The notes under the pieces: model-generated
Database searches by the model: none
What the model was told of the DNA's origin: nothing
What the model saw: only the letters and a program-made list of their open reading frames with translations
Position numbers and translations under genes: made by a program
Virus record (IMG/VR): IMGVR_UViG_3300035670_000384
Coordinates: 1-45,702 of that record
Source of the DNA: a virus
Strand: one strand, 5' to 3'
Length of the DNA stretch: 45,702 nt
In this document: in pieces, positions 5,311-40,253 of the stretch
Numbering within the stretch: the first letter of the stretch is position 1
Layout of the letters: each line of letters begins with the position of its first letter

Positions 5311-7177
5311 TTGCCTCCTGTAAATCTTCTAAATACTTTTCAGGGTTAGGCTCTCCCTCGTTGTGCATTATCTTTAAAATAAATTCAGATATTCTAAGTC
5401 TTTTACCCTCCTCCATTAAGCCTTGCTTAATATTAGGATTGATAAGCATATCGAGCATTCTTACTTTGGACTGCGCCCTTTCAGCACCTACACCAAGCGC
5501 CATAGACTTAACATCGGGAATATAATCAAGTTTCATATCTACCGGTAAGTCATCTTTGGTCACATATAAAGTGCCGTAATCCTCGGATTCTTCAAACTCA
5601 AGTTTTTTCTTGATATCAAAATTCTCCGGATTCTTTTCCCTTGGATTTAATATAACAGGATATTTTGGTAAAGTTATAGACTTCATAGCATTTCTTAACG
5701 CCATCTGGTCCATACCGCCCGACTTGTCTACAGAATCTACCAAGTAAGCCATTGCCTCATCACTGATGTCATTATCATTTAATCCAAGTTCTTTTAACTG
5801 ATCCAGCATATCCCTACCAACTATCTTAAAAATAATATGGTTTTTGGTAGGATCAGAAAATAGAAACTCCTGATTATTAGTAACCCAAAACATCATTTGA
5901 TCTTTTAAGGATTCTGATAAATACAACTGATTTTGCTGATCTCTTGATTGCCTCTGCCTTGCAGTATCCATTACCTCTGTTGCAGTCTTATCAGCTTCCC
6001 TAAAATCAAAGTTGGAAAGACCTTGGCTGGTTTCTCCAAGTGCAACATCTATAGCGGATTTAATAGCAGGTACAGCAGTTCTATAACCGGCGATTGCCTG
6101 ATCCCCCGTTCTATGCTCCGCAACATTATTGGGATTGCTACCAATAAGCCATATTGCGTTAGGGCCATAATCTAGGGTATCAAGCCTTACCTCATGGTTA
6201 TTTGCAACCTTAATAGGAGGATTCATACTAAGGTTTATTGCATCTATATAACTGCAATGAAAAGCATTTAAGGCTCTTGCCAAAGATATAATAGGCTCAA
6301 CCTCACTGTCTCCATACACATCATCACCCACCGGATAATATCTAAGCTGTATAACAGGTATTTTTTTAACAGGTAGCGGAGTATCTGACTCGCCAACCTT
6401 TATATCGTGATTAGGAGTAAAGAAATACCATTTATCTTTTCTATATTCAGTTACAAACTCAATAATAGGAAATGCACTATCATCCCCAATCCTGTCCTCC
6501 AACTCCCTCATTTCTTTTACAGCAGAATTATAATTTACTGCCCGCCTATCCGACTGGTAAGACTTGGATTCCAAGACTGATTTTAACTCGTCTAGGTTAT
6601 TATATAAATTACCGCCTACCAGCTTATTTCTTTCCTCTAACTGTTCATAGGTTAAATATTCTCTAACCTGTACCCAATTAGCATTTTTTATATGATTTGC
6701 TGACGGATCAATAAAGACATCCCTATTATCCAATACCTTAAATTCATTACCCTCATACTCACCTGATGTTTTCCAATAAACTAAACCAAAACTTGCACCA
6801 AACAGCCTTGTTTGAATATCCATTAATGCCCATTTCTCCAGCATTGAACCGCCATCATCAGCAGCATCCCATTGATAATCTAGGATGGCATTATGTATCT
6901 TTGCCTTTACAACATCGCCACCCTCTCTTGGTATCAGTTTACCCCTTAGCTTTGCATTAAACAGTCTTGAGTTTTTTTCCAATATTTTAGTTCTGATAAT
7001 AGGGTCGGTTACTTGTGATAAATAAGGCCAGTCACTAGGCAGATATCCATGGTATTCTCTTAAAATATCATCCCAACCATTATGTCTGGTTTTTCTGATT
7101 TCCATGTCCTGCTTGCCGACCTGATAGTGTTCTAAAAGCTCTGTTAAAAGCGTATCATTCTTATTTGATTTAGCCAT
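5162..7177 (-). CDS. Portal protein
   Basis: 671 aa, the usual size for P22/T7/phiEco32-type portals, which form the 12-subunit ring at the packaging vertex. Recognised from position directly after the large terminase and from typical text: an N-terminal region around WPYLSQVTDPIIRTK, a middle rich in aromatic and Tyr-Tyr-Pro segments (QLRYYPVGDDVYGDSEVEP) and a Gln/Gly-rich disordered C-terminus. ATG at 7177 has no Shine-Dalgarno; the phage-type promoter 7184-7212 puts +1 on the ATG. The last ~50 codons also encode the start of the 109-aa protein in another frame. Confidence 0.85.
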   Translation of the reverse strand: MAKSNKNDTLLTELLEHYQVGKQDMEIRKTRHNGWDDILREYHGYLPSDWPYLSQVTDPIIRTKILEKNSRLFNAKLRGKLIPREGGDVVKAKIHNAILDYQWDAADDGGSMLEKWALMDIQTRLFGASFGLVYWKTSGEYEGNEFKVLDNRDVFIDPSANHIKNANWVQVREYLTYEQLEERNKLVGGNLYNNLDELKSVLESKSYQSDRRAVNYNSAVKEMRELEDRIGDDSAFPIIEFVTEYRKDKWYFFTPNHDIKVGESDTPLPVKKIPVIQLRYYPVGDDVYGDSEVEPIISLARALNAFHCSYIDAINLSMNPPIKVANNHEVRLDTLDYGPNAIWLIGSNPNNVAEHRTGDQAIAGYRTAVPAIKSAIDVALGETSQGLSNFDFREADKTATEVMDTARQRQSRDQQNQLYLSESLKDQMMFWVTNNQEFLFSDPTKNHIIFKIVGRDMLDQLKELGLNDNDISDEAMAYLVDSVDKSGGMDQMALRNAMKSITLPKYPVILNPREKNPENFDIKKKLEFEESEDYGTLYVTKDDLPVDMKLDYIPDVKSMALGVGAERAQSKVRMLDMLINPNIKQGLMEEGKRLRISEFILKIMHNEGEPNPEKYLEDLQEANVQQAIQGQAGTGQRGRNQKISNISGFDATAGVEASGNPAGIPSTGVLS

Positions 7178-9761: not shown

Positions 9762-9867
9762 GTATGCTGTAAGCTGTACACAATGCACTTTGAAAATTGA
9801 ATATCTCAAACACAAAAAAACAAAATAGTTTATCAAGTTTTAGTATTTATTTATGAAAGGTAAAAAA

Positions 9868-10248
9868 ATGACCTATACAAAAGAACAAAAAAATAATTAT
9901 TTTACTAATTTACGCACCGAGTGGAAAAAATCCAAAGCGATGGCTGAAAATGATCAGCTCATGCAAGCCTTATATCGTGAGGCCGGCGTAAATTTCAGTT
10001 ATTGGAGTTTTGCATTTACAAAGTATGAAATGGATGCCAAAGGTTTACATGGCACACCTTACATTGATTGTAAAACTTTCAATGGTTGGAGGGATGCCGG
10101 TTTTATAGTAAACAAAGGAGAAAAAAGCGTTATAAGGGGTATAACTTGGATACATCCAAAAGGTAAAGACGGCGACGAGGATGAAACCTTTTTATATCCA
10201 AAGGTATATAACCTTTTTCATGTCAGTCAAGTTTCAGAAATTAAATAG
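9868..10248 (+). CDS. ArdC-like (N-terminal domain) protein
   Basis: 126 aa. The segment FNGWRDAGFIVNKGEKSVIR followed by YPKVYNLFHVSQV matches the pattern of the ArdC N-terminal single-stranded-DNA-binding domain (Gly + V-x-K-G-E-K, then 'K-V-Y-N-V-F-N-V-x-Q'). ArdC proteins protect incoming DNA from restriction and bind ssDNA; the C-terminal metalloprotease domain is absent here. ATG at 9868 follows AAAGG at 7-8 nt; an in-frame ATG at 9853 is possible. First gene of the plus-strand operon, consistent with early expression. Confidence 0.5.
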   Translation: MTYTKEQKNNYFTNLRTEWKKSKAMAENDQLMQALYREAGVNFSYWSFAFTKYEMDAKGLHGTPYIDCKTFNGWRDAGFIVNKGEKSVIRGITWIHPKGKDGDEDETFLYPKVYNLFHVSQVSEIK

Positions 10249-10272
10249 TTTATCAATTTACAGGAGGTAAAA

Positions 10273-10404
10273 ATGGAAAATCTGCTCAAATATTACCATG
10301 CAATAGCAACCGGTAATAGTGTAATGAGTTTATATTATGCCTATTTACTAGGTTATATAAACAAAGCGGAATTTGACCGATTAAGAGCAAATCCCGCTAA
10401 GTAA
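10273..10404 (+). CDS. Small hypothetical protein (43 aa)
   Basis: The ATG is preceded by a perfect AGGAGG at 6-7 nt spacing, and the frame closes with TAA. The product is Tyr/Leu/Ala-rich (LYYAYLLGYINKAEFDRL), resembling one short amphipathic helical unit. It lies 24 nt after the ArdC-like gene and is clearly in its operon. Function unknown. Confidence 0.6.
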   Translation: MENLLKYYHAIATGNSVMSLYYAYLLGYINKAEFDRLRANPAK

Positions 10405-10418
10405 TAAAATTTTCAAGA

Positions 10419-10468
10419 CCTATAAAAGCCTTGTAATGCTTATTATAGCATTGCAAGGCATGAATAGG
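10419..10468. repeat. Long inverted repeat upstream of 165-aa gene
   Basis: 13-bp arms (10428-10440/10447-10459, one T/G difference that still pairs in RNA) with a 6-nt loop, inside a second 5-bp stem (10419-10423/10464-10468). It ends 10 nt before the ATG at 10479 and has no T-tract on the plus strand, so a translational or processing role fits better than termination. Confidence 0.6.
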
Positions 10469-10478
10469 CAATAAAAAA

Positions 10479-10976
10479 ATGACACAAAAAGAAGCAATCA
10501 AAAATATAGTAGAAACATTTGATGATAGACGACTAGCTTATCAATTTATTTTTAATTGGCTTGAGGATATCAACTGGCATAGGGAAAATACTATACTATC
10601 CGAACAGTTAAATAAGCATGATTTCAGATATTTAGATGCCTTGGAGAGATTGTATCAAGCAACCCATCAAGGTAACTATGCACATCAATATATAGTTGAT
10701 TTATTAGCAAATGACCTCGAGCTTGCCGGTGCGCTTGTAGATATAGAGAATAAAAGGGTTGCATTTTATAGAGGGTATAGGTTCGACTCGGAGCATCTGC
10801 ATGAGTTTGACAAGACCCAGTTTTATAGAGCATTTAACTATATATGGGGTTGGGGTATCACAACTGCTGATTGGGTAAAGACATCCGGTCCGGAGTTTGT
10901 CGATGAAGTAATAGAGTTAGTAGAGCCTATTTTTAAAGAAAAAGCGGCCTACGATAAAGCAATGAGGGGTTACTAA
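10479..10976 (+). CDS. Hypothetical protein (165 aa)
   Basis: Acidic, helical protein with many aromatic residues (FNYIWGWGITTADW near residue 130). No family recognised. The ATG sits just after a large hairpin (10419-10468) and has only a weak ribosome-binding site, so translation may be controlled by that structure. Third gene of the plus-strand operon. Confidence 0.6.
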   Translation: MTQKEAIKNIVETFDDRRLAYQFIFNWLEDINWHRENTILSEQLNKHDFRYLDALERLYQATHQGNYAHQYIVDLLANDLELAGALVDIENKRVAFYRGYRFDSEHLHEFDKTQFYRAFNYIWGWGITTADWVKTSGPEFVDEVIELVEPIFKEKAAYDKAMRGY

Positions 10977-10977
10977 A

Positions 10978-11175
10978 ATGTCTATCCCTGCCACATACTC
11001 TAAAACATGGCTGGTCTATGTTACCGATAAAAAAGGCAACACTAGGCTAGCCACAAGGCTACCGGATGAGACTTGCTTACAAGCGACAGTAAGGTATTAT
11101 CAAAGTATGCCAAGTACTAAATTAATCTATGCTAGGAGGGCAAAAATATATGGAGGTAAAAGAGTCACGCAATAA
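10978..11175 (+). CDS. Hypothetical protein (65 aa)
   Basis: Starts 1 nt after the previous stop (TAAAATG), suggesting coupled translation. Basic, with a beta-rich look (WLVYVTDKKGNTRLATRL). It overlaps the following HTH gene by 26 nt. Function unknown. Confidence 0.55.
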   Translation: MSIPATYSKTWLVYVTDKKGNTRLATRLPDETCLQATVRYYQSMPSTKLIYARRAKIYGGKRVTQ

Positions 11176-11323
11176 ACAGATTTACGAGGATAAAAAAACA
11201 TTATCCTATACCCAATTAATCCAGAAATATGGGCTATCACTTGCAACACTGCAAAGGATAGTGCAAAGAGAAAAGCTAAGAGAATTTGAGGATGCCCAAA
11301 ACCAAGAAAAGACCGGGAATTAA
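11150..11323 (+). CDS. Small helix-turn-helix protein
   Basis: 57 aa. LSYTQLIQKYGLSLATLQRIVQ (about residues 15-36) is a clear helix-turn-helix; the rest is charged. I chose ATG 11150 because GGAGGG lies 9 nt upstream; an in-frame ATG at 11129 would place that motif inside the gene. It is the last gene of the plus-strand operon and the only obvious DNA-binding protein in it, so it could be the operon's regulator or an excision factor. The stop lies in the loop of the terminator. Confidence 0.55.
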   Translation: MEVKESRNKQIYEDKKTLSYTQLIQKYGLSLATLQRIVQREKLREFEDAQNQEKTGN

Positions 11324-11339: not shown

Positions 11340-11495
11340 TTATGTAAACCAAAGTGTAGCCTTGCTTGGTTTATATTCAATACCAAATTTGTACCAATAG
11401 CCAATATTAAAGCCACAATCGCAAAACTGCCTATCAGCCGGCATGTCTTTTTTACACTTAGGGCAAGTTCTTAATTTATTCTTGTTTTTTGTCAT
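11340..11495 (-). CDS. Small zinc-ribbon protein (51 aa)
   Basis: CPKCKK (residues 11-16) and CDCG (25-28) form a four-Cys zinc ribbon, followed by a short aromatic tail. ATG at 11495 overlaps the end of the upstream 120-aa gene by 20 nt, so translation is coupled. Last gene of the long minus-strand early operon; it ends directly at the terminator hairpin. Role unknown. Confidence 0.6.
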   Translation of the reverse strand: MTKNKNKLRTCPKCKKDMPADRQFCDCGFNIGYWYKFGIEYKPSKATLWFT

Positions 11496-11838
11496 CTTTC
11501 AATTTGAATTTAACACTCTCGGCTGCATTAATATTAAAAAACACAGCCGCACCGTGATCCTCGTCATCTTCCCCGCATAGCCATTGCATAAAATGTCTAA
11601 ATGCCGAGCTTTTAAATCTGTCCAGCTCGTCTTGACTGTTTGCCAACTGCCAGTTACGCCTACCGTACTTGTCTGCGCCCCTCGCCATAAGTTCTGCCCA
11701 CCTCGTCAACATTTGATCTTTATAGGGCATGAAGTCGGTTAAACATAATTGAAAGTCGGGCTTGCCCTCCTGCGTATCTCTACGCATCCCGGAGTTATAA
11801 TTGATTCTTTTTCCGCTATCCTTTGTTTGATATTTCAT
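11476..11838 (-). CDS. dATP/dGTP pyrophosphohydrolase-like protein (DUF5664 type)
   Basis: 120 aa. The pattern R-R-D ... GKPDF near residue 20, then GADKYGRRNWQ, RHFMQWLCGEDDEDHG and a final N-I-N segment matches the small phage proteins described as dATP/dGTP diphosphohydrolase N-terminal (DUF5664) family; His/Glu/Asp residues in RHxxxWxxGExxD are the likely metal ligands. A role in shaping nucleotide pools during phage replication is inferred. AGGGGGA precedes the ATG at 11838 by 6-7 nt. Confidence 0.6.
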   Translation of the reverse strand: MKYQTKDSGKRINYNSGMRRDTQEGKPDFQLCLTDFMPYKDQMLTRWAELMARGADKYGRRNWQLANSQDELDRFKSSAFRHFMQWLCGEDDEDHGAAVFFNINAAESVKFKLKDDKKQE

Positions 11839-11847
11839 ATAGTCCCC

Positions 11848-11937
11848 CTAAAAAATAAAACAACAAATAATACTAATAATGGCGGGTAAAATTAAACACC
11901 CGGATAATATACAAGATATACAGATTTGCTCATCCAT
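11848..11937 (-). CDS. Tiny hydrophobic peptide (29 aa)
   Basis: ATG at 11937, one base after the previous TAA, ending with TAG at 11848. After a short acidic start the rest is one membrane segment rich in Ile/Leu/Cys. No Shine-Dalgarno; re-initiation is needed. Could be a small membrane toxin/antiholin-like peptide or chance. Confidence 0.3.
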   Translation of the reverse strand: MDEQICISCILSGCLILPAIISIICCFIF

Positions 11938-11938
11938 G

Positions 11939-12049
11939 TTATTTATCAGATATCCCTTTTATAAGTTTATAATAATACTCTATTAAACTTTCATGTATCC
12001 AATGTCCGTTTACTTTTATGAATTTGTTTTTTATCCATTTATTTTTCAT
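11939..12049 (-). CDS. Small basic peptide (36 aa)
   Basis: ATG lies within the end of the preceding gene (overlap 11 nt), and the frame closes with TAA. Lys/Tyr/Ile-rich. The overlap style is the same as in neighbouring genes of this operon, which is the main support. Function unknown. Confidence 0.4.
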   Translation of the reverse strand: MKNKWIKNKFIKVNGHWIHESLIEYYYKLIKGISDK

Positions 12050-12233
12050 ATACTATTTTGTGTATCTTTTCTTCTTTGTATTCTTTTGGTAGATCATAAA
12101 TTTTTACTAGACTATCACAATTTGTAAAAAACTCATCTAATAATAATTTCTCTATCTCCTGCAATGCCTTATAGGTTTCATACTCATAATTTATAGTACC
12201 CCAATAATGATTTCTTAATATTCTTTCAATCAT
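12039..12233 (-). CDS. Hypothetical protein (64 aa)
   Basis: Acidic helical protein (ALQEIEKLLLDEFF). ATG at 12233 overlaps the stop of the repeat-encoded frame upstream (ATATGATTG). No family recognised. Confidence 0.5.
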   Translation of the reverse strand: MIERILRNHYWGTINYEYETYKALQEIEKLLLDEFFTNCDSLVKIYDLPKEYKEEKIHKIVYEK

Positions 12234-12472
12234 ATAGACCTAGACCCAGACCAAGACCAAGACCAAGACCCAGACCTAGACCAAGACCTAGACCCAGACC
12301 TAGACCTAGACCAAGACCAAGACCAAGACCTAGACCCAGACCTAGACCTAGACCCAGACCAAGACCTAGACCCAGACCTAGACCTAGACCAAGACCTAGA
12401 CTCAGACCTAGACCAAGACCCAGACCTAGACCTAGACAAATATAATGTATTTATGTTATATTCTATAAACAT
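12230..12472 (-). CDS. Frame reading hexamer repeat as (Ser-Arg/Gly/Trp)n
   Basis: 80 codons from ATG at 12472; after 12 ordinary residues it becomes an alternation of Ser with Arg, Gly or Trp produced by a TCTNGG hexamer. It fits the operon spacing (4-nt overlaps with neighbours). However, the changing base N alters the amino acid in this frame and is silent in two other frames, so protein selection is not visible here. Either a low-complexity protein or an open frame over a DNA repeat. Confidence 0.3.
   Translation of the reverse strand: MFIEYNINTLYLSRSRSGSWSRSESRSWSRSRSGSRSWSGSRSRSGSRSWSWSWSRSRSGSRSWSRSGSWSWSWSGSRSI
12235..12437. repeat. 34-unit hexanucleotide tandem repeat NAGACC
   Basis: Thirty-four units with one degenerate position: on the plus strand the base before AGACC is T (16), A (10) or C (8) and never G. 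All other positions are invariant except one C>T (end of unit 28) and the last partial unit. No comparable repeat occurs elsewhere in the window. Confidence 0.95.
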
Positions 12473-12473
12473 T

Positions 12474-12815
12474 TTATTTCTGAGAAGTTGGTAATTTGTG
12501 CACCCAGGGAAACATATCTACTATTGAGTCTATGTTTAGAAATGCCTCTCCTACAGGTTCAACCTCATCTAAAGTACCATCTTTGATAGCGTTCATAAAC
12601 CTACCGCTATCTGCTACCCAAGAGGCATTTTTTAGTTGAAAGAACTTACCTACTCTTTTAACCACCTCTCCTACCATGTGATAGGTTACGGTTCTGATAA
12701 ATAATTTTTTACCTATGAAATCATCAAGGCTATCAACCTCAATGGTTTCCTCTTGCGTGAGCTGGTCTTTAATCAGCTCATAAGTTTCATCACTTATTTC
12801 TAAAACTTTAGTCAT
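12474..12815 (-). CDS. Hypothetical phage protein (113 aa)
   Basis: Mixed acidic protein with a beta-rich centre (KKLFIRTVTYHMVGEVVKRV) and a C-terminal FLNIDSIVDMFPWVHKL. AAAGG lies upstream of the ATG at 12815. Style matches small conserved early phage proteins; I cannot assign a function. Confidence 0.6.
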   Translation of the reverse strand: MTKVLEISDETYELIKDQLTQEETIEVDSLDDFIGKKLFIRTVTYHMVGEVVKRVGKFFQLKNASWVADSGRFMNAIKDGTLDEVEPVGEAFLNIDSIVDMFPWVHKLPTSQK

Positions 12816-12854
12816 TTTATGACCTTTCTTTTAATTAAATACTTTAGTTTGTCT

Positions 12855-13091
12855 TTATTCTCGTATGGGTTCATCTTCTCTATTCTCCTGATACCAAATA
12901 TATAAGGGGTTTGTTTTCAGCAGTTCTTCTGAGCATTCTTCCCAAAGACTATCTGCTTCTTTTATCCACATGGCTTTTATTAGCTCATTCATAAGTTTTA
13001 TTTTTTTCCACTCTTTTTCACTTACATTAGTAGCCTCATCAATTATTATCTTTGGGTAGTCAGCAGGCAGTCTATAATTTGTCTCAATCAT
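12855..13091 (-). CDS. Hypothetical protein (78 aa)
   Basis: Acidic, Trp/Glu/Lys-rich helical protein. The ribosome-binding site AAAGGAGGTAAGG lies inside the last codons of the upstream gene, giving an ATGA-type overlap. Function unknown. Confidence 0.6.
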   Translation of the reverse strand: MIETNYRLPADYPKIIIDEATNVSEKEWKKIKLMNELIKAMWIKEADSLWEECSEELLKTNPLYIWYQENREDEPIRE

Positions 13092-13387
13092 TCTCCCTTA
13101 CCTCCTTTGGTTTGTGAAAGTAAAGGCAAATATAGGAACACCAAATAACTTAAACTATTTAATGTTTTCCACCTTTTTATTATTTGCCATTTCTTCATTT
13201 TATTAAGTCTTTCAATATGTCCTTTTATTGCGTTATGCAACATATTCATTTCGTAACTTATTTGAAAAGCAAAACCAGCCCTAACTTCTTCCGCATATCT
13301 TTTGGCATACTCATCACTACCAAGATATTCAACTGCTTTTGTTAAACTCTCTACTGTTAAAATGTCTCTTGTGGTTTCTTTACTCAT
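13088..13387 (-). CDS. Hypothetical protein (99 aa)
   Basis: Helical protein with a hydrophobic stretch near the C-terminus (LSYLVFLYLPLL) ending in LSQTKGGKGE. That tail is encoded by a DNA cassette that also carries the next gene's ribosome-binding site and recurs at the ends of the two genes upstream. The start follows AAAGGAGATAC in the upstream gene. Function unknown. Confidence 0.55.
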   Translation of the reverse strand: MSKETTRDILTVESLTKAVEYLGSDEYAKRYAEEVRAGFAFQISYEMNMLHNAIKGHIERLNKMKKWQIIKRWKTLNSLSYLVFLYLPLLSQTKGGKGE

Positions 13388-13556
13388 CTGTATCTCCTTT
13401 AGTTTGTGATAAGTAAACGGATGGCGATGTTGACGCAGACGGTAGTGTTGATGTGGACAGAGACATACTTACACTTCTTCCCGTTCCATCACTTCCAGCA
13501 TGACTTAAAAGCCCTATTCCTAATAAAACTAATGTTCCTAATATAAAGTTAATCAT
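13380..13556 (-). CDS. Small membrane or exported protein (58 aa)
   Basis: ATG at 13556 follows AAAGGAGGTAAGGA. An N-terminal hydrophobic helix (FILGTLVLLGIGLL) is followed by a Ser/Thr/Pro-rich tail ending in LSQTKGDTDE. It fills the gap between two larger genes with 4- and 8-nt overlaps. One membrane helix or an uncleaved signal is likely; function unknown. Confidence 0.55.
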   Translation of the reverse strand: MINFILGTLVLLGIGLLSHAGSDGTGRSVSMSLSTSTLPSASTSPSVYLSQTKGDTDE

Positions 13557-13783
13557 TCCTTACCTCCTTTAGTTTGTGATAGGTAGAAGGTAACATCTGA
13601 TTGGGTTATTGGAGATGCGTTAAAATAACCTCTATTTTGCCAATCAGCAAACCCCCTCACAGCTTCTTCTCTTTCCTTTTGTATGAGGTTAAACAGTTCC
13701 TCTATTGCCTTTGCCTGAAAAGGATGGTCTTCGGTCAGATACCCGTATTTATTTTCTAATATTTTTTCTATTTTATTTTTCAT
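13553..13783 (-). CDS. Hypothetical protein (76 aa)
   Basis: Helical acidic N-terminus (IEKILENKYGYL), aromatic middle, C-terminus LSQTKGGKE on the same repeated cassette as its two downstream neighbours. The ATG at 13783 overlaps the end of the upstream gene by 11 nt. Function unknown. Confidence 0.55.
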   Translation of the reverse strand: MKNKIEKILENKYGYLTEDHPFQAKAIEELFNLIQKEREEAVRGFADWQNRGYFNASPITQSDVTFYLSQTKGGKE

Positions 13784-13928
13784 TTATTTCTATTACCTCA
13801 AATAAAAACTTAACAATTCTTGCTACAAAGTCTTTGCTTGCCGGATGATTTGCATGATAACCAAATTCAACCTCTATCCAGTCCTGTAGCTTTTCGATAA
13901 ATTTTTGCTCTTGCTTTTTAGTTAGCAT
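13773..13928 (-). CDS. Hypothetical protein (51 aa)
   Basis: ATG at 13928 with GAGGT at 5-6 nt, TAA at 13773. Helical and acidic with a conserved-looking WIEVEFGYHANHPASKDFV core. Spacing and overlaps fit the operon. Function unknown. Confidence 0.5.
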   Translation of the reverse strand: MLTKKQEQKFIEKLQDWIEVEFGYHANHPASKDFVARIVKFLFEVIEINEK

Positions 13929-13930
13929 AA

Positions 13931-14014
13931 TTACCTCGCAATCTTTTTGGGCTTTTTATCCCATCTACTCCACGACCTTGAGTACTTTTTTTTATAATTT
14001 TCATCTTTTTTCAT
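13931..14014 (-). CDS. Tiny basic peptide (27 aa)
   Basis: ATG overlaps the stop of the upstream nuclease gene (AAATGA), with AAGGA just before it. Lys/Arg/Trp-rich. Supported by the overlap pattern only. Confidence 0.35.
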   Translation of the reverse strand: MKKDENYKKKYSRSWSRWDKKPKKIAR

Positions 14015-14316
14015 TTCCTTATAATCTCCATAAAATCCCCCCAAGACATAACAGCTAAATCAAGTCCTCTATCCCATCTAGCACGCACCACCCTTATTTT
14101 TCCTGCAAGGTCGGGCATTTCTAAATACGCCTGCTTTATGGGAGGATTTTTCCCAACCTTGCACTGTATTATGTAAGGATCGCAATCTGTTACATCAATG
14201 CCTGTTCCCTCTTGATACTCTAGGTTTCTCTTAGCATCCGGATAACCTATTTTTTGCATGTCTCTTGCAGTTTGTCTCTCAAAATTATGACCTTTTGTTC
14301 TTTGATACTTTCCCAT
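14011..14316 (-). CDS. Holliday-junction-resolvase-like / PDDEXK nuclease
   Basis: 101 aa. An early Glu (KGHNFERQTARDM), then GIDVTD and YIIQCKVGK form the E...GxD...QxK pattern of PDDEXK-fold resolvases/nucleases. It may process replication or recombination intermediates. It follows a Lys-rich zinc-type protein and precedes small genes; the ATG overlaps the upstream gene by 32 nt. Confidence 0.55.
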   Translation of the reverse strand: MGKYQRTKGHNFERQTARDMQKIGYPDAKRNLEYQEGTGIDVTDCDPYIIQCKVGKNPPIKQAYLEMPDLAGKIRVVRARWDRGLDLAVMSWGDFMEIIRK

Positions 14317-14605
14317 TCTTTTTAGTCTTTTTCTTTACAACTTTATTACCTTTACCAACAGTCCACCCCTCGTTTTTAGTAAGCACATACCACCCGCACA
14401 CATCGCATTTTCTTAAAAATACTCCCGGAGTTAGCATCCCCATCATATCCGCCTCCGTAAAGGTAGGCGCTGCAACAACATGCTCGCTACAAGGCTGATC
14501 TTGCCTTTTAATTTTTGCCTCCTTGATGACATGCTTTACAAAAGCCTTATCATCCTTTTTATTCTTTTTTTTAGTAATCCATTGCAATAAGTTTTTTATA
14601 TTCAT
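14285..14605 (-). CDS. Lys-rich protein with a Cys motif (106 aa)
   Basis: From the ATG at 14605 (an in-frame upstream ATG at 14665 lies further inside the previous gene). The start reads KNLLQWITKKKNKKDDK; the middle has a CDVCG motif in a tryptophan-rich segment; the tail is Lys-rich and basic, suggesting nucleic-acid contact. Only three Cys are present, so a full zinc finger is uncertain. Overlaps both neighbours. Confidence 0.45.
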   Translation of the reverse strand: MNIKNLLQWITKKKNKKDDKAFVKHVIKEAKIKRQDQPCSEHVVAAPTFTEADMMGMLTPGVFLRKCDVCGWYVLTKNEGWTVGKGNKVVKKKTKKNGKVSKNKRS

Positions 14606-15092
14606 TGTAATAACAATCTGTTTTGTAAACACTCCAGGCACCGTATCCTTGTGAAAGCCATACATTATAGGCTAGCTCCACATTCTTTTCAGGATTAAAT
14701 ACTTGGCTAGGAGCATAACTATGTACTGAATTTATCTGTAATAAACCACCACTCCACGAGCCGTTTGGTTCTAGTTTTATGGCTTCCGGGTTTAGCCTGC
14801 TTTCGCAAGTAGCAATAGCAATCATTACAGGGTAATCCCACTCGTAGCGGTCTTTACAGATGTACTTTGTAACATCACCAACGCAATACATATTCTTGTT
14901 ATCGGCAGTTTGCCAGCTAACAACCGGGCTTAATACCGTCATTTCAGAATATGCTTGCACTGTATTTTTGTTTGCAAAGTACAGGTATAATGAAACTGCT
15001 AGGGCTAGAGCAATTAAAACTGCTGCCACGCATCTTTTAATTTGTTTTTTTAGCCTTAGCACTTGTTTGTATTTTTTAGTTCGCTTATCCAC
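14571..15092 (-). CDS. Membrane-anchored lytic transglycosylase/lysozyme-like protein
   Basis: 173 aa from GTG at 15092, with GGAGGTGA 8 nt upstream. A basic cytoplasmic end is followed by one membrane helix (about residues 22-40), then an extracytoplasmic lysozyme-like domain: catalytic Glu in IATCESRLNP (about residue 98), GLLQINS, and the closing NVELAYNVW...GYGAWS typical of goose-type/SLT folds. It cleaves peptidoglycan glycan strands. Its place in the early operon, far from the lysis cassette, suggests a role other than burst, such as local wall opening or superinfection effects. Confidence 0.75.
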   Translation of the reverse strand: MDKRTKKYKQVLRLKKQIKRCVAAVLIALALAVSLYLYFANKNTVQAYSEMTVLSPVVSWQTADNKNMYCVGDVTKYICKDRYEWDYPVMIAIATCESRLNPEAIKLEPNGSWSGGLLQINSVHSYAPSQVFNPEKNVELAYNVWLSQGYGAWSVYKTDCYYNEYKKLIAMDY

Positions 15093-15553
15093 TCTGTATC
15101 ACCTCCTTTTGCTATTGGTAAACTGAAATACTGATTGCCGTCATTGGCAAATGCTTCCAAAGTTAAATTAGTCATCATAGCTTGTAAATCTCCCGGCTTA
15201 TAAAATGCCGGGGTAGAATCCTTAAAACAAAAAACATAATATAGGCGGTCTTGCCCTTGACAAAACATATCCTCAAACATCCGGGCATATAAAAAATCAT
15301 TTAGCTTTAGTTTGTTAGTACCTTTGACATGAAAATATATTGCGTAGTCTCTTTTTGTTAAAACATAATCGGGCAGCGACCTCAAAAAAGGTGCAACACT
15401 CCAAAAGCAAGGTACTTTATTGCCTTTTTCATCAAAACCCATTCTTTTAATGTTATGTTTATTTTTCTGCATAAATTTTTCAAATAACTCCTCCGCTAAA
15501 TTTGCCACTGAATTTCGTACTGCAAAGGAATTTAGGGCAGTATCAGGCCTCAC
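15056..15553 (-). CDS. Putative nuclease-like protein of early operon (165 aa)
   Basis: GTG start at 15553 overlaps the upstream TGA (GTGA). A PDY...D...YFHVKGT segment (about residues 61-79) resembles the PD-(D/E)xK core with the last Lys in HVKG, followed by helices. The fold is my inference from this pattern; it could instead be a replication accessory protein. It ends 36 nt inside the transglycosylase gene. Confidence 0.45.
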   Translation of the reverse strand: MRPDTALNSFAVRNSVANLAEELFEKFMQKNKHNIKRMGFDEKGNKVPCFWSVAPFLRSLPDYVLTKRDYAIYFHVKGTNKLKLNDFLYARMFEDMFCQGQDRLYYVFCFKDSTPAFYKPGDLQAMMTNLTLEAFANDGNQYFSLPIAKGGDTEWISELKNTNKC

Positions 15554-16458
15554 GCTATCAAATCCTCCCCGAAAAATTGTAATACTTCCTCTGTTTTAGC
15601 CGGGCAATTCTGATCTTTAAACTGCAAGGTATCCTCGTCAAGATATAAGTCTCTAATATCGCCCTGCATTCCCCGCCTTGCCTTTAATACTCTAAAAAAT
15701 GTCTTGCCCCTGCCCTCCTTGGTGGAATGACCGGCAGTTCTAACCATTGCCCAAACATCCGTGGCGTACTGCGTAATCCCACTAGAGCCTTTTAAATCGT
15801 CAATAGTCGGTACTCGGTATTTAACTACATGCACATCCTCGATATCTTCAATCCATGTACCGCCACCGCTTTGGCTTTTTCTAACATGATGGCAAATAAT
15901 TATTGAGGTATTTAGTTTTTGTGCCAGTTCTTTAAACTTCTTTGTTGTATCGGTTTGCATCCTGATTACCTCAACTTCCGGTATACCTGTTTCAAATGCT
16001 TGCAACGGATCAATAGCCACCACATCAGCTTGTGACCCTCTTATCAAATTAATAATGTTCCAAGTGATATCCTGCTTATTCGTGTAGGACAGCTCATAAA
16101 GTTGCTCATGATTGAATAAATTTATTTTGCCGGATATTTCCTCCCACTTTCTATGGGCATCCTCGTTGTTTGTCTTGTCCATAAAGTATTCTCTTGTAAG
16201 CCCGTACCAGATCATTAAAAATCTTTGTGCCATAAGCTCCGCACCGTTTTCCAAGTCAAAATAGGCAACCCTAACTCCGCTTTTTGCCAACTTGATTAAA
16301 ATATTCATTAACAGCAAAGACTTGCCCATGCCCGTAGCGCCGGCAAGGATAATTAATGACTGCCTTTTAATCCCGCCAATAAGTGAATCAAGGCTCGGAT
16401 AACCTGTAAGGATGCCCTGCTGATATTTGCTGTCAAATAAATGATCTATTAATTCCAC
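15550..16458 (-). CDS. DnaB/RepA-type replicative ATPase
   Basis: 302 aa RecA-fold ATPase: Walker A GATGMGKS (about residues 40-47), acidic switch FDLENG, Walker B VVAIDPLQ (about residues 144-151), a sensor segment SIIICHHVRK, and GSSGITQYATDVW near the C-terminus as in DnaB C-terminal/RepA-like helicases. It lacks the DnaB N-terminal domain. It would unwind phage DNA at replication forks together with the DnaD-like protein encoded just upstream, whose stop it overlaps by 10 nt. Confidence 0.8.
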   Translation of the reverse strand: MELIDHLFDSKYQQGILTGYPSLDSLIGGIKRQSLIILAGATGMGKSLLLMNILIKLAKSGVRVAYFDLENGAELMAQRFLMIWYGLTREYFMDKTNNEDAHRKWEEISGKINLFNHEQLYELSYTNKQDITWNIINLIRGSQADVVAIDPLQAFETGIPEVEVIRMQTDTTKKFKELAQKLNTSIIICHHVRKSQSGGGTWIEDIEDVHVVKYRVPTIDDLKGSSGITQYATDVWAMVRTAGHSTKEGRGKTFFRVLKARRGMQGDIRDLYLDEDTLQFKDQNCPAKTEEVLQFFGEDLIA

Positions 16459-17090
16459 GGTCGTATTACATCCCCCTGTTTTAACTTGCCCTCATCCACT
16501 CGCCTGCGTATCCAATTACGGAGGGCGGCTTTCATATCCTTGTAGTGTTCGCCACCTTTTTTTGCAGACTCCCAATCGATAATATCCTCGTAAACCCTTT
16601 TAACTTGAGATACATCTATTAAGAAGTATTTGGCTAATTCTTGATAATCATTCTCTGATATATCTCTCTTAGTATTCTTATCTTTCTTATCTTTCTTACT
16701 ATGTTTCAACTCGCTTTCAACTCGCTTTTTACTCGCTTTCAACTCGCTTTCAACTTTGCTTTCAACTCCTTGATACCTTGTCCAGTTTTTGACTGTAATG
16801 ACGGTAAAAGAGAAGTTGCTTTGCTTTTCAATCATGTTTTCAGAAATTAGATAATCAATGATATAACTGACCGTACCCGTAGATAACCCGTAATAGTCTG
16901 CTATGCTTTTTATGCTTGTGAGCAGCGATCCTCTATTGATAACTGTTCTTTTGTTATTCCATATAAACTCTGTATTTGTAGGATTGGCATTTAGTAGCAG
17001 ATACTCCCACACCGCTTTGTAATTAGGCTTACGGTCAAGCGGGTTGTCTTGTACTTTTCTATAAAGTTTTATCCAGCCTTGTTTTAGCAT
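16449..17090 (-). CDS. DnaD-like replication initiator (replisome organizer)
   Basis: 213 aa. The N-terminal winged helix (WIKLYRKVQDNPLDRKPNYK, then SIADYYGLSTGTVSYIIDYL as the recognition helices) is typical of phage replisome organizers. It is followed by a charged linker with repeated VESELK units and a DnaD-like C-terminal helical end (YQELAKYF...YEDIIDW). It would mark the origin and load the helicase encoded next. The upstream 82 bp contains two perfect hairpins and no Shine-Dalgarno. Confidence 0.75.
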   Translation of the reverse strand: MLKQGWIKLYRKVQDNPLDRKPNYKAVWEYLLLNANPTNTEFIWNNKRTVINRGSLLTSIKSIADYYGLSTGTVSYIIDYLISENMIEKQSNFSFTVITVKNWTRYQGVESKVESELKASKKRVESELKHSKKDKKDKNTKRDISENDYQELAKYFLIDVSQVKRVYEDIIDWESAKKGGEHYKDMKAALRNWIRRRVDEGKLKQGDVIRPWN

Positions 17091-17099
17091 AGGAGCAGA

Positions 17100-17141
17100 T
17101 TAGCCTTTAAATTATTGGCTAACTTATGAGGGCAAGCGCCC
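17100..17141. promoter_or_regulatory. Two hairpins before the replication initiator
   Basis: TTAGCC/GGCTAA around an 11-nt loop (17100-17122) and GGGC-AAGC-GCCC (17130-17141) in the 82-bp gap between the ssDNA-binding protein and the initiator genes. Not followed by a T-tract, so control of translation or an initiator-binding site are options. Confidence 0.4.
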
Positions 17142-17172
17142 GAAGTTTCTTACCCCCATAATTAGACAACGA

Positions 17173-17775
17173 TTATTTTTCTACTTCTCCGTCAAGTGTT
17201 TCTAAAACATCCTCAAGTTCAACTTCGATTACCTCGTCATCATCTTCGTCTACTTCGACTGCACCGGCAAAAGGATCAGCGCCTCTGTATAAAGCATTTA
17301 GATCAATTCCTGCATCTTTATAATCTTGTGCAATTTCCTTTGCTATCGGCTCTTTTGGTGATGGTATAACGACATAGGAGGTATCCTTACCATCCCCTTT
17401 TCTAACAATAGTTACATCGTAGGCTTTCAAATCTCCGTATTTTTCATTATCCTCATAGCCCTGTAACGGTTCTTGAATTTGTTTTTGTGTTATTTCCATG
17501 ATTTGTAGTGCCTCATCTTGATAGTTCCAAACAACAACTGCCCAAAAATGTACAGCCTTGTTCTTATCTCTTTTCCACACATCTTTTGGTACATCACGCC
17601 ACTCTTTCACTCTTTCGGGTTTAAAGCCATCCGGAGTTTGATCGAACCACACAAAACCGGTTACGACATCCGACATGAATCTAAAAGTATTATCACCATG
17701 CGGTAGCTTGGATGGTTTTATGTATCTGTTTGCACCGGGATTTTTTGGTATTTTATAACCTTTTGGTAACGCCAT
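17173..17775 (-). CDS. Single-stranded DNA-binding protein (phage type)
   Basis: 200 aa from ATG 17775, which follows a strong GGAGGTGA (a longer in-frame start at 17889 would overlap the upstream gene). A basic N-terminus with PKGYKIPKNPGANRYIKPSK is followed by a beta-rich core (FRFMSDVVTGFVWFD), a Cys-less body, and a very acidic C-terminal tail with about 14 Asp/Glu, the hallmark of phage SSBs that recruit partners by the tail. Directly upstream of the initiator and helicase genes. Confidence 0.65.
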   Translation of the reverse strand: MALPKGYKIPKNPGANRYIKPSKLPHGDNTFRFMSDVVTGFVWFDQTPDGFKPERVKEWRDVPKDVWKRDKNKAVHFWAVVVWNYQDEALQIMEITQKQIQEPLQGYEDNEKYGDLKAYDVTIVRKGDGKDTSYVVIPSPKEPIAKEIAQDYKDAGIDLNALYRGADPFAGAVEVDEDDDEVIEVELEDVLETLDGEVEK

Positions 17776-17779
17776 TTTC

Positions 17780-18163
17780 CTATTCACCTCCTTTTCTTTT
17801 GACAAAACTTTGTATGTACCCGCTTGGGTATCTTTGTTGTAAGGCTTTACTTCCGTAATGCCTAAATTTAATTGCATATTCAAAGTCAATCCTTTTCTTT
17901 TTTAGCTCTTTTAAAACATCGGTTAAATCTTCGTCCTTGTCTAATTTATTTTTAATAACAGTCTCCAAAAAGAAACCATCTGCATACATGGCATATTTTT
18001 CACCTACTTTTTTTGCTAAGGATTTTAATATTTCTCTGTGGGTAATTCTGCCTGTTCCCTCTTTTTCTATCTCATCCCGGCACATCCAATACTCCTCCCA
18101 TGTAAGCCAACCTTTTGTGAAAGCATCGTGAATTTTATTTATACGGGCAAGATTGGGCATCAT
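17780..18163 (-). CDS. Hypothetical early protein (127 aa)
   Basis: Helical, Lys/Glu-rich protein (HDAFTKGWLTWEEYWMCRDEIEKEG). The C-terminal KRKGGE codons form the SSB gene's ribosome-binding site, and the TAG stop is 4 nt before that start. The first codons overlap the HTH gene (TATGATG-type junction). No family recognised. Confidence 0.55.
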   Translation of the reverse strand: MMPNLARINKIHDAFTKGWLTWEEYWMCRDEIEKEGTGRITHREILKSLAKKVGEKYAMYADGFFLETVIKNKLDKDEDLTDVLKELKKKRIDFEYAIKFRHYGSKALQQRYPSGYIQSFVKRKGGE

Positions 18164-18378
18164 AGAGACATATCACCTTTTAAGAGCTTGTTTTGGACAG
18201 TCTTAACAACTTTATAGACTCTTTGACGAGATATGTTATATTCTTTTGCTATTTGATTGGCTGATTTTTTAGAAGTATCTTTATATCCGGTAAATTTTAA
18301 GTAGATATCCCTGTTTTTATTTGTTTCAAAATTATATGTTCTTGACTTTTTACTTTTTTGTAGTAAATTAAAATACAT
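18160..18378 (-). CDS. Helix-turn-helix regulator, first gene of early operon
   Basis: 72 aa from ATG 18378; a longer frame from 18444 would read through the attP/tRNA sequence and is unlikely. KSANQIAKEYNISRQRVYKVVKTV near the C-terminus is a sigma-region-4/LuxR-like helix-turn-helix, the N-terminus is basic. The start lies directly after the attP terminator hairpin. As the first gene after attP it may control early transcription or the lysis/lysogeny choice. Confidence 0.6.
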   Translation of the reverse strand: MYFNLLQKSKKSRTYNFETNKNRDIYLKFTGYKDTSKKSANQIAKEYNISRQRVYKVVKTVQNKLLKGDMSL

Positions 18379-18404
18379 AAAGACCTGTTCGCAGGTCTTT
18401 TTTT
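18379..18404 (+). terminator. Bidirectional terminator beside attP
   Basis: AAAGACCTG-TTCG-CAGGTCTTT with a following T-run on the plus strand; on the minus strand TTT follows the stem. In a prophage it would terminate the restored host tRNA; in the free phage it lies in the early operon leader. Confidence 0.7.
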
Positions 18405-18416
18405 GCCTACATTTTA

Positions 18417-18455
18417 TGGTGGGGAGGGTGGGAGTCGAACCCACATCTCCGTAGG
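18417..18455 (-). other. attP core: 3' part of a tRNA gene
   Basis: Sense minus: variable-arm end, T-arm stem CCCAC/GTGGG with the TTCGA-type loop, 3' acceptor strand, discriminator A and encoded CCA (18417-18419). No 5' tRNA half is present, so this is an attachment site that restores a host tRNA on integration. The long variable arm suggests a class II tRNA (Tyr, Ser or Leu). It is 100 bp from the integrase start. Confidence 0.85.
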
Positions 18456-18487
18456 AAAAAGACCTTGAAAAGTAAATATACTAGAAA

Positions 18488-18515
18488 ATTATAGCACATC
18501 CGATACCCCTGTCAA
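18488..18515 (-). promoter_or_regulatory. Consensus promoter reading through attP into early operon
   Basis: TTGACA (18510-18515), 16 bp, TATAAT (18488-18493); start near 18481. Transcripts run through the tRNA fragment and hairpin into 18378-11340. It is on the integrase side of attP. Confidence 0.75.
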
Positions 18516-18556: not shown

Positions 18557-19504
18557 ATGTCCGTGAGCCTATCATTTGCACAGTGGCTCTTTTCACAAGG
18601 TAGACATAAGAATACGGTTGCGCTTCACCTTAAAAAGTTAAGGGTCATAAAGAGAAAATTAAATAAAATAAATTACTCAAACTGCCTAAAAATGATAAGC
18701 TCCATGAAAGAGGGCGGATATTCCAATGCTACAATTAATCACTATGTCGGCACTATGCGTTTATACGGCGTATATAAGAATATCCCGGAGTTAAATAATC
18801 TAAAATTTTTTTCTAAAAAAAGTGCATTAAAAGGCACACTAAGCGATGAGGAGATAGAGAATTTTATTAACCTTCCTAGACCTCCAAATATAAATAAGGA
18901 TTGTTGGGAATTGTTTTCTCTGTGGTTGGAGGTCTTAGCGTACACCGGCTGTAGACCGGGAGAGGCGGCAAATCTTACTATAAATGATATAGACTTTGGT
19001 AGAAATGTTATTATTTTTAAATATACAAAAACCGATGAGCCTAGAGTAGTGGGCATAGCTCCCAGACTTGCAGAGCATTTAAAAGAGCATGTAAGTAAGT
19101 GTGAAAACTATTTATTTTTAACAAAGCAAGGACAAGTTTATTCAGATCATAGCTGGTTACATAGATTTAATAACAGAAAAAAGATTTTAGGCATTAAAAG
19201 AAATAATATTACCCCTATGAGTTTTAGGCACAGCTTTGCAACAAGAATGTTAGAAAAGGATGTCAATATTTATAAGGTTGCAAAGATACTTGGCCATGAT
19301 ATAAAAATGACACAGCAATATGAACATCTGACTGTAGAAGATGTAAAGACTGCTATGAATAAACACCCTTTAATTAAAAAACAAATAAAATTTTCAAAAC
19401 AAGAAGTTATAAAAATACTATCCGAGGTTTTAAATGATATAGGTCTAGTGTATGAAACTAAATTAAAAAATGAGCATGTCTTACTAAAGATTAGATGCCC
19501 TTAA
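18557..19504 (+). CDS. int: Tyrosine-family site-specific integrase
   Basis: 315 aa. A SAM-like core-binding N-terminus is followed by the catalytic domain: Arg in YTGCRPGEA (about residue 133), Lys in KYTKTDEPR, Arg in MSFRHSFAT, His in KILGHDIKMT and the nucleophile Tyr in QQYEHL (about residue 256). The usual first His of the H-x-x-R motif is Met here. It integrates phage DNA at the tRNA-derived site 100 bp upstream. The ATG follows AAGGG at very short spacing; a GTG two codons later is an alternative. Confidence 0.92.
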   Translation: MSVSLSFAQWLFSQGRHKNTVALHLKKLRVIKRKLNKINYSNCLKMISSMKEGGYSNATINHYVGTMRLYGVYKNIPELNNLKFFSKKSALKGTLSDEEIENFINLPRPPNINKDCWELFSLWLEVLAYTGCRPGEAANLTINDIDFGRNVIIFKYTKTDEPRVVGIAPRLAEHLKEHVSKCENYLFLTKQGQVYSDHSWLHRFNNRKKILGIKRNNITPMSFRHSFATRMLEKDVNIYKVAKILGHDIKMTQQYEHLTVEDVKTAMNKHPLIKKQIKFSKQEVIKILSEVLNDIGLVYETKLKNEHVLLKIRCP

Positions 19505-26720: not shown

Positions 26721-26749
26721 TAACTAAAAAAATCAATAAAATATTTCAA
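26721..26749 (-). promoter_or_regulatory. Phage-type late promoter before tail adaptor
   Basis: TTGAAA (26744-26749), 17 bp, TAGTTA (26721-26726), then TTAGTT-ATG; +1 at the ATG, 26714. Its -35 box overlaps the stop of the tail fibre gene. Confidence 0.7.
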
Positions 26750-29700
26750 ATCAGGGTGTAATGCTTCCCGGTTAGTCTTAGTGCAAGTTCACCATCTACA
26801 TAAATAAACTTAGATGGAAAGTCATTTACTAAGGCATAGCAAGTTACGGTTTTAGGTGTAAGTGCTATTTGAAGTGGGGATAGTCTTGCTGTATGAGTAT
26901 TACCAGCAATAGCAGTTACCTCTGGTACAGTTAAGGTTGTAGTTAGTGGTGCTACGGATGCAGTACCTACTTGGATATATGTAGCAGTTACAGCAGTAGA
27001 GGTAATATTTACTGCTAGGGGACTTACCGTAGCTGTGCCTACCTGCACATAAGTTGCTGTTACAGATACGGTGGTTATATTTATTACTAATGGAGATACA
27101 GCTGCTACTACACCCGATTGACTTGTTGCAGTAACTTCTGGCTGGGTAAGCGTCATTGTAGCAGGACTTACAGCTGCAGTACCGATCTGTATATAAGTTG
27201 CCGTAACCTCTGGTTGAGTTAAGGTTGTAGTTAGTGGTGCTACTACTGCACTATCTACTTCTAGGTAAGTTGCAGTTACTTCGGGGTTAGTAGTAGTTGT
27301 AGCAATGGGAGATACAGTTGCCGATCTAACCTCTGCATGAGTAGCAGTTACCTCTACTTGTGTTAGCGTGGTTGTAAGTGGTGCTACTGTGGCTGTGCCT
27401 ACCTGAATGTATGTTGCTGTTACTTCAACTGCTGTAAGAGTTAAAGTTACAGGGGAAACTGTTGCTGTACCGCCAGCTAGATGAGTAGCAGTAACCTCTG
27501 GTTGTGCTAGGGTTAATGCTAATGGGCTAACACTTGCAGTACCAACTTGAATATAGGTAGCTGTAACCTCTGGAATAGTAGCTGTTAATCCTAAAGGTGC
27601 TACTGTTGCAGTATCAACATTTATAAATGTAGCGGTTGTAGTGGTTGGAGTTAATGTTAATGCTAGTGGACTTACTGTTGCTGTACTAGCTGTTGCAGAT
27701 GTAGCTGTTACTTCGGGCTGTGTTAAAGTCATTCCTACAGGACTTACACTTGCTGTACCGATCTGTATGTATGTAGCAGTAACTTCTGGAATTGTTGCTG
27801 TAACGCTAAGTGGAGATACCGTAGCACTATCTACCTCTAAGTATGTAGCTGTTACTGCTGGTGGAGTAAGAGTTGTTGTTATAGGTGCAACTGTAGCTGT
27901 TTTGACAATAGCATAGGTAGCCGTTACCTCTGGTTGTGATAGATTAACAACAAGCGGTGCTACACTAGCTGTATTGACCTGCACATATGTAGCTGTGGTT
28001 GCTGTAGGTGTTAGTGTTGTAGTAACAGGGCTGACTGTAGCTGAATCTACCTCTAAGTATGTGGCAGTTGTAGTTGTGGGCGTAAGTTCTATGCCCAATG
28101 GGGATACTGTTGCTGTTGAACTTCCTGCTGTAACACTAAAACTATAAGTTGAACTCCAATCTCCCCAATTATTAGAACCCGTTGTATCTTTACCCCTTAC
28201 ACGCCAATAATATGTTCCTGCGGATAAAGCTGATTGAACTGTGTATTTTATTTGGTCGCCCGAATCAAAAGGGTCTGTGTCTCCACCATCTGTTACATCT
28301 GTAAATCCTGCATCTGCGGAAGATAGCCCCTTTGTCATGGGATTAACTGTAAGCCTACGGGTATAAGCAGAGCCATATCTTGTATAGATAATATGGCTAC
28401 CATTAGAGGACACCGTCACGCCTGTAATATTATAACCACTTCCGATGGTTATTGTAGATAAATAACTGCCTGTTGATATATCCCATGCAGTACTTAAAAC
28501 ATAATTTTTAATTACACCATCGGCATATAAACATACATAACATACTGTACCATCAGAATTAAAACCTATACCATGTAAACCATTAACAGCAGCTACATCT
28601 AGGCTTTTAGAAGCGTAACTAGCTGTGGAAATATCCCAAGCTGTTGAAAGCGTATATTGAAAGATAACATCACCATCCCTAGCAGCCACATAACATTTAG
28701 TCCCGTCTGATGAAAAAGCTAATCCTGTCGTATATAAATCAAGGGTTTGGGTAGATGTAGAATAAGACTTTGAAGCATAACTACCTGTTGATAAATCCCA
28801 AGCTGTGCCTAATGTATATTGAAAAACAGTTTCGTTGGGTGTGTCTAAAACATAGAACTTAGTTCCATCTGAAGATATACTACAACCCGTAGTACTTGTG
28901 GTTTGCGATAAAGCGGATAGTGTTTTATCTGTATAACTAGCGGAAGTCAAATCATACGCAGTATTCAAATTAAATTGATACACAAGTGCCGAACCCGTTA
29001 TAAGATACAATTTCAAGCCACTATCCCCAAAACACAAATCGTGTATAGTTGTCGCTGATATAATAGATACTTCTTGGTCTTCTACTACCTCGCTTAAATC
29101 ATGCTTATTAGTAGTAGTAAAATCACTTCCCTCGTCTATTTGTACCTCATAAGTAATCGGGCTTGTTCCTTCTGGGTCTGTACCTGTAAAAGTTAAATCA
29201 GGTGTGGTATCAGAGGTTGTACCTGAATCATCAGGGCTGTTTAATGCAACTGAAACCGCCTGATTATAAGTACCATTTATTTCCACTTCGTCTACTGACC
29301 ATACCGAACCATCTGCCGCTTTGTTTGCTGCATGAACAGTTTTTATGGCTAAAACCGCATTATCCCAATCCTCTTTTGTTGCAGTAGTTGAAACCCCTGT
29401 AAATGAAGTGTTACCCTTATTCGTGATTGCAATATTGGCAGTAGTTGAAACCACTAGCATCTCATCTGTTAAGGCTGTAGTTCTGTCTGATTTATAAACC
29501 CTTACATATAAGGTTTCCGTATCACCCGAAAGGTTTTCTATCTTATAACGGATATTATAAGTAAGGGTTGTCATTGCACCTAAATCGGAGTTGACATTAG
29601 TTATATTATAAAAAGCTGTACCCGAAGAATTAGCACCAAAGACCAAAAAAGCTCCATCAGGCGAGGCGACTGTATTATCTATATTTCCAACTGTGGTAGT

Positions 29701-29763: not shown

Positions 29764-29999
29764 TATTCCTCCTCTAAATAAGGACAAATTTCGTATCTAA
29801 CACCATCAAAGGTCATATTTATACAACATTGCCCACACCTATTACATTCGCCTTTTCTTTCCTCGTTTTCAAAATAATAAGAACAAGTAGGCAAGGCTAT
29901 AAGTTGGCTAGGTATCTGCGGATGCGTTTTACAAATATCTGGTCTATTTTCGTAAATAGCACATCTATAAGTTTTACCCACTTCTATTTTATCTACCAT
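29763..29999 (-). CDS. YkgJ-like cysteine cluster protein, motifs in permuted order
   Basis: 78 aa with seven Cys. CAIYENRPDICKTHP (about residues 13-27) is the second motif of YkgJ-type zinc/iron-sulfur proteins, and CNRCGQCC (about 52-59) with a following CPYLEE is the first; in usual family members the CxxCGxCC part comes first. Preceded by GGGAGAT. It lies between structural genes, its stop touching the tail fibre's start. Metal binding is likely; the job is unknown. Confidence 0.6.
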   Translation of the reverse strand: MVDKIEVGKTYRCAIYENRPDICKTHPQIPSQLIALPTCSYYFENEERKGECNRCGQCCINMTFDGVRYEICPYLEEE

Positions 30000-37823: not shown

Positions 37824-37827
37824 ACTA

Positions 37828-40201: not shown

Positions 40202-40208
40202 ATCTAGG

Positions 40209-40237: not shown

Positions 40238-40253
40238 TCGGTAAGTTAGAGTG

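Follow-up and report, generated by a model that had tools for sequence, protein, structure and literature searches.

The attP-int region of this phage probably acts as a position-coupled switch, at which integration disconnects the replication operon from its early promoter (P_E) and excision reconnects them. We analysed one whole IMG/VR record of 45.7 kb, referred to here as the window, in which a consensus promoter, a tRNA-derived attP core, a hairpin and the first gene of the operon follow each other on the minus strand (Table 1). The order promoter, att, operon was kept in 6/6 divergent phages, and in each of them a hairpin immediately precedes the first ATG. We infer promoter activity, termination or RBS occlusion, antitermination and prophage silence from the sequence.

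Early promoter, attP core and genome layout

P_E, which has an extended -10, was the only 12/12 match to a sigma-70-type promoter in the window, and no such match occurred in 10 Markov-simulated windows. From P_E, the minus strand reads through 31 bp of a tRNA-Phe(GAA) 3′ end and the hairpin to the ATG of an HTH gene, and int lies on the opposite side of P_E from the operon, on the plus strand. A consensus promoter that reads through a tRNA-derived attP toward the replication operon, as claimed in the first-pass annotation, was thus borne out. The core is located 110 bp from int, within the non-coding leader between P_E and the HTH start codon, and cuts no repressor ORF. Since ARAGORN identified no tRNA in the window, the 31-bp stretch is a 3′ fragment of a tRNA.

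Table 1. Coordinates of the features in the window and, in the last row, of integrases from other contigs
Feature	Position	Strand	Evidence or remark
Tyrosine integrase (int)	18557..19504	+	PF00589 5.5e-27, phrog_1 4.5e-44; relatives 35-42% identical
Early promoter P_E, TTGACA-16-TATAAT with TG before the -10	18488..18515	-	12/12; TTGACA-based counterpart at the same place in 5 related phages
Leader arm 1, AGGTCTTTTTCCTAC, complementary to arm 2	18451..18465	-	RNAduplex -19.1 kcal/mol, p 0.0005-0.001 vs shuffles; in MFE structure
attP core, GATGTGGGTTCGACTCCCACCCTCCCCACCA, 31 bp	18417..18447	-	Identical to tRNA-Phe(GAA) 3′ end of WWE3 (Patescibacteria), T-arm to CCA
Arm 2, GTAGGCAAAAAAAGACCTG, pairs with arm 1 or arm 3	18392..18410	-	
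Hairpin arm2:arm3, bidirectional, terminator-like	18379..18400	-	Ends directly before the HTH start codon
Arm 3	18379..18387	-	
Promoter-like site within the HTH gene, oriented toward attP, TTGACT-16-TAAATT	18342..18369	+	9/12
First early-operon gene, 72-aa HTH protein (HTH72), sigma-region-4 / Mor-like	18160..18378	-	AlphaFold pLDDT 69, three helices
Remaining genes of the leftward early/replication operon: p127, SSB-like, DnaD-like loader, DnaB-like helicase, SLT lysozyme-like, RusA-like, others	11476..18163	-	Leftward limit ~11476
Opposite-strand module: weak ArdC N-terminal match, 165 aa, 65 aa, 64-aa Mor/HTH protein	9853..11323	+	Behind 11/12 promoter at 9733
64-aa Mor/HTH protein of the module (HTH64)	11129..11323	+	
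C-terminal-extension integrases	L152 10597-11619; L153 12443-13456; L051 8189-9271; L052 10076-11146		

The window had traits of a tailed temperate phage, namely a tyrosine integrase beside attP and an attP that in silico restores the 3′ end of the host tRNA. The terminase large subunit had its matches in phages, phage replication and lysis genes were present, and no conjugation proteins were found among the window proteins scanned (a subset of the ORFs). A possible GTG start of int, with the better SD, lies at 18563. In the ORF from this start (18563-19504), the first His of the HxxR box is Met (M219), a position occupied by Tyr in several relatives, and the other catalytic residues are retained.

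Exact copies of a 28-nt part of the 31-mer occurred in just 4 of the collection's species genomes; all 4 are Patescibacteria, and each copy lies in the 3′ end of tRNA-Phe(GAA). The full 31-mer was exact in 2 of these 4, and a 34-mer of the tRNA had no match among the collection genomes. All 4 belong to one class (45 genomes) that includes candidate division WWE3, and the tRNA end points to this class of Patescibacteria as the host.

Coding is almost wholly on the minus strand, with int and the opposite-strand module as the plus-strand exceptions. The ends of the window are redundant, as positions 1-113 are repeated exactly from 43351, and 2284-2391 equal 45595-45702 exactly; between these repeats (1-2391 and 43351-45702) a divergent allele was seen, with 61% at the amino acid level in one part of an 818-aa protein. 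Thus, the genome is most likely a circle of ~43.3 kb which was assembled through two strain variants. Other observations on the window were a long run of glycosyltransferase-like genes (31792-40309, by eye) inside the structural half of the genome, an 80-aa ORF of RSRSGSWS-type repeats whose DNA repeats are hairpin-forming (12230-12472), and a protein of 1013 aa (26746-29787) that carries numerous ATVSPL...TLT-type repeats and probably belongs to the tail or a fibre.

Related phages and prophage ends

Relatives were found only by integrase alignments; when viral_contigs was scanned with one protein at a time (int, TerL, DnaB) or with an exact tRNA 37-mer, there was no match. Five further distinct phages were identified: L057, L058 (also represented by L059), L060, L098 and L102. 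On the strand opposite to int, each has a TTGACA promoter followed by att, a hairpin and, within 0-4 nt, the ATG of an HTH gene encoding 69-73 aa, this ATG being 109-153 nt from the promoter -10. The hairpin and HTH sequences differ throughout among the 6 phages. A tRNA-type att was present in 3/6, that is, in the window, in L057 (the same tRNA-Phe core) and in L060 (a different tRNA-like 3′ end), and those of L058, L098 and L102 are not recognisable tRNA ends, with their cores placed by eye at inverted repeats. The more distant L129 has the promoter and an antisense 5′ part of a tRNA with no obvious hairpin, and in L169, an int-less relative, a promoter-like site stands directly before the operon with neither att nor hairpin.

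When the phage was joined in silico to a WWE3 genome at the core, one junction contained the full tRNA-Phe (identified by ARAGORN), followed by the hairpin and then the operon, and the other had P_E and int beside host DNA with no tRNA. The junctions confirmed the earlier expectation that promoter and operon would come to lie at opposite prophage ends with the tRNA restored; recombination within the core necessarily parts the two.

We propose that in the circle leftward transcription from P_E would cross attP and continue into the HTH gene and the replication operon. Int would recombine the tRNA-Phe 3′ end with the host gene, by which tRNA-Phe is restored in silico. In the integrated form, P_E and int would be at one end, facing host DNA, and the operon would be at the other, behind the tRNA and the hairpin. 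There the operon would have no promoter, and read-in from the promoter of the host tRNA would be restricted by the hairpin, through termination and/or occlusion of the HTH start region. In the circle, arm 1 is predicted to pair with the 5′ arm of the hairpin and so to open it, a prediction that is strong in the window and L060 and suggestive or weak in the other 4. Excision would rejoin promoter, arm 1 and operon, which would amount to induction.

The first-pass annotation had proposed to look for the prophage in host genomes and to inspect both of its ends, and this was answered in part. No integrated copy of the window's own phage was found in the 45 WWE3 genomes, nor in the phylum and class samples. 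Int-side ends were seen in contigs of two Patescibacteria genomes, G426 and G546, whose integrases are related but only 24-27% identical. The G426 contig carries tail, endolysin and holin genes and then int, and the G546 contig carries terminase genes and then int. In both, a TTGACA promoter adjoins int and points into host genes (a LysM protein and a penicillin-binding-protein cluster, respectively), and these contigs show the predicted int-side prophage end. Their operon-side ends are not on the contigs; searches with att DNA and the SLT protein gave chance matches only, the last genome search, in the order of G426, covering 4 genomes.

Other integrase neighbourhoods were set aside. Those of G221 and G072, beside a yifB-like gene, and of G640, G739 and G442, at the 3′ end of ftsZ, were not clearly phage. 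G248 (L050, 1240-2602) turned out to be a 2-kb element of int and an HTH_3 gene at the lexA 3′ end, with a TTGACA promoter facing lexA. An integrase family with a conserved C-terminal extension, located at ftsZ 3′ ends or beside the yifB-like gene, was observed in several Patescibacteria genomes.

Leader RNA and candidate regulators

A terminator had been expected before the operon. A hairpin does exist there, but its better U-tract in the window is on the plus strand, and on the minus strand it would be a weak-to-moderate terminator. The plus-strand U-tract was the better one in 4/6 phages, and termination on the minus strand may therefore be weak. As the hairpin ends at the HTH start codon in 6/6, and in the window overlaps the start region of the HTH gene, it could affect translation as well as transcription.

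The arm1:arm2 helix was part of the MFE structure and beat shuffles (p 0.0005-0.001, two region definitions) in the window and in L060, the sequences of which are unrelated. For the window, the predicted probability of the hairpin was 0.04 in phage RNA vs 0.98 in lysogen RNA; for L060, it was 0.23 vs 0.98. In L057, L058, L098 and L102 the hairpin wins at equilibrium, its predicted probability being unchanged between phage and lysogen RNA, and arm1:arm2 was not significant with a mechanical region definition (p 0.10-0.20). Nascent-chain folding, at which the RNA was taken up to arm 2 only, favoured arm 1 in L057 and L098 (reached by 0.5% and 2.5% of shuffles), less so in L102 (8.5%) and not in L058 (37.5%). 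The combined arm1:arm2 p of the 5 relatives was 0.0006, carried mainly by L060. Given this split, the predicted antiterminator is well supported for two phages only, the window and L060, both with a tRNA-type att, and elsewhere only suggested. From the predicted folds, arm 1 may serve as an antiterminator or may free the RBS, and integration would remove it. Rfam gave no match above the gathering score, and weak matches were ignored. We also considered arm 1 as a tRNA relic, which was unconvincing, as the resemblance to the anticodon arm is limited to a short GGTCT.

Arms 1 and 2 are also inverted repeats on both sides of the core in DNA, and flanking sites are often used by integrases. The arms could then act as DNA, i.e. 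as an inverted repeat flanking the core that is bound by Int or an excision factor. We consider this quite unlikely. The arm sequences are wholly different between phages, yet complementarity to the hairpin arm is kept in the window and L060; arm 1 is also similar to arm 3, as competing RNA helices would be; and the arms lie ~29 bp from their centre, unlike the core spacing.

The promoter-like site on the plus strand must also be taken into account. From the end of its -10 to the HTH ATG, the distance is exactly 12 nt in L057, L060, L098 and L102, and 9 nt in the window; L058 has a similar site by eye, which was rejected by the scan rule. Because the N-terminal ITQ motif common to the HTH proteins overlaps this site, constraint on a promoter and constraint on the protein are indistinguishable there. 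We take the site as a lead: this candidate promoter might drive int or a short antisense RNA, but it might also do neither. After integration, the strong plus-strand terminator would shield the host tRNA from it.

With convergent promoter-like sites flanking attP, the spacing of the -10 to the ATG fixed in four relatives and a hairpin U-tract that is strong on the plus strand, P_E might yield only a short non-coding RNA ending at the hairpin, and/or the plus-strand promoter might yield an antisense RNA as an immunity factor in trans, in the style of P4 or P1, with the operon having its own promoter. The plus-strand site and the hairpin would indeed remain operon-side after integration. However, the predicted plus-strand RNA is only ~30 nt, the promoter scan gave no match of 11/12 or 12/12 within the remainder of the leftward operon or ahead of it, and folding predicts that the leader made from P_E breaks up the hairpin in the window and L060, all of which makes this account very improbable. 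The HTH operon may contain unrecognised internal promoters, which would speak against the position-coupled switch.

The absence of a CI-like repressor, as stated in the first-pass annotation, held as far as Pfam HTH_3 (PF01381) is concerned, with no match among the window proteins at E<=0.1, but the window does encode a sigma factor and, besides, two small HTH proteins of other kinds. The sigma factor is compact and RpoD-like (273 aa, 36143-36964), with regions 1.2, 2, 3 and 4. HTH72 was examined as an excisionase and rejected, as it has no Xis-family match and is a sigma-region-4/Mor-like HTH protein instead, with a low-confidence model. The opposite-strand module is a possible alternative seat of the lysogeny regulator, and it is possibly an early-defence module. 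In L058, a 200-aa protein with an HTH_3 domain fused to sigma-70 region 4 was observed (5702-6304).

Most temperate phages use repressors, and the separation of promoter and operon could be incidental: an unrecognised repressor (HTH72, HTH64 or a host factor) acting on P_E would keep lysogeny, and attP would sit in the leader only because this is the non-coding stretch beside int. HTH64 lies in the opposite-strand module behind an 11/12 promoter, and the HTH_3 proteins encoded by L060 and L058 favour an ordinary repressor and suggest that at least some relatives also use one. On the other hand, no HTH_3 match was found in the window and L098, and those in L057 and L102 were weak and sub-threshold. 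Moreover, the short gap would allow attP on either side of P_E, yet P_E is always int-side and the hairpin operon-side in 6/6 phages. An incidental separation therefore seems to us rather unlikely, and we keep to the position-coupled switch. Its widest form, at which this Patescibacteria phage family keeps lysogeny without a dedicated repressor, attP recombination swapping the antiterminator arm and the promoter for the host tRNA so that one and the same hairpin would be opened in the circular form and shut in the integrated one, is conceivable but doubtful.

Comparison with known systems

In the sib/int retroregulation of lambda, a cis regulatory RNA site is likewise parted from its gene by attP recombination; it differs from the present case in that its target is int mRNA decay, not the early operon. 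In mycobacteriophage BPs and its relatives, attP lies inside the repressor ORF and integration gives a shorter repressor (PMC4557955). The resemblance to such phages that was noted at first reading stands to the extent that the placement of attP lets integration alter phage regulation. It does not extend to the target, since attP here lies in a leader, a promoter is disconnected and the repressor ORF has no counterpart that is cut; Tn916 and ICEKp1 are closer precedents.

ICEKp1 resides behind tRNA-Asn, whose promoter reads in through terminator-like stem-loops, and in its circle a promoter reads across att and a 15-bp end segment seemingly counters these stem-loops (PMC13023037). Integration behind a tRNA gene, read-in from the host tRNA through leader stem-loops and a promoter across att in the excised form are thus features that ICEKp1 and ICEclc share with the arrangement proposed here (PMC13023037). 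The difference is that in these elements, which are ICEs and not phages, the state-dependent promoter controls int and not a replication operon.

In Tn916, the main promoter Porf7 and the antiterminator canT are at one end, and the terminator T1 and the processing/replication operon are at the other, so that expression needs the circle (PMC11658703). Only the circular form allows transcription to run across the joined att, and the terminator insulates against host promoters (PMC11658703). As in Tn916, promoter and operon of the phage lie on opposite sides of att and would be joined only in the circle, which is seen here by sequence and, for the promoter side, in G426 and G546. In place of the Tn916 terminator, a hairpin is present in 6/6 phages, with a minus-strand U-tract that is weak in several. 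Tn916 is a conjugative element and not a phage, and its canT is large (hundreds of nt) and processive, whereas in the phage a 15-nt arm would pair directly with the hairpin and the att site is a fixed tRNA.

In the open-access text searched, no paper described a phage whose promoter and operon are separated at attP. To our knowledge, a promoter and an operon that straddle attP are known from mobile elements such as Tn916 and not from phages, and there has been little work on how phages of the Candidate Phyla Radiation control lysogeny. By analogy, what would be new here is a phage version of the known ICE logic, in which an arm that pairs locally takes the role of canT. Should the replication operon be disconnected by integration itself, phages too would use the expression logic of Tn916-type ICEs, as a lysis-lysogeny switch whose decision element is the recombination junction.
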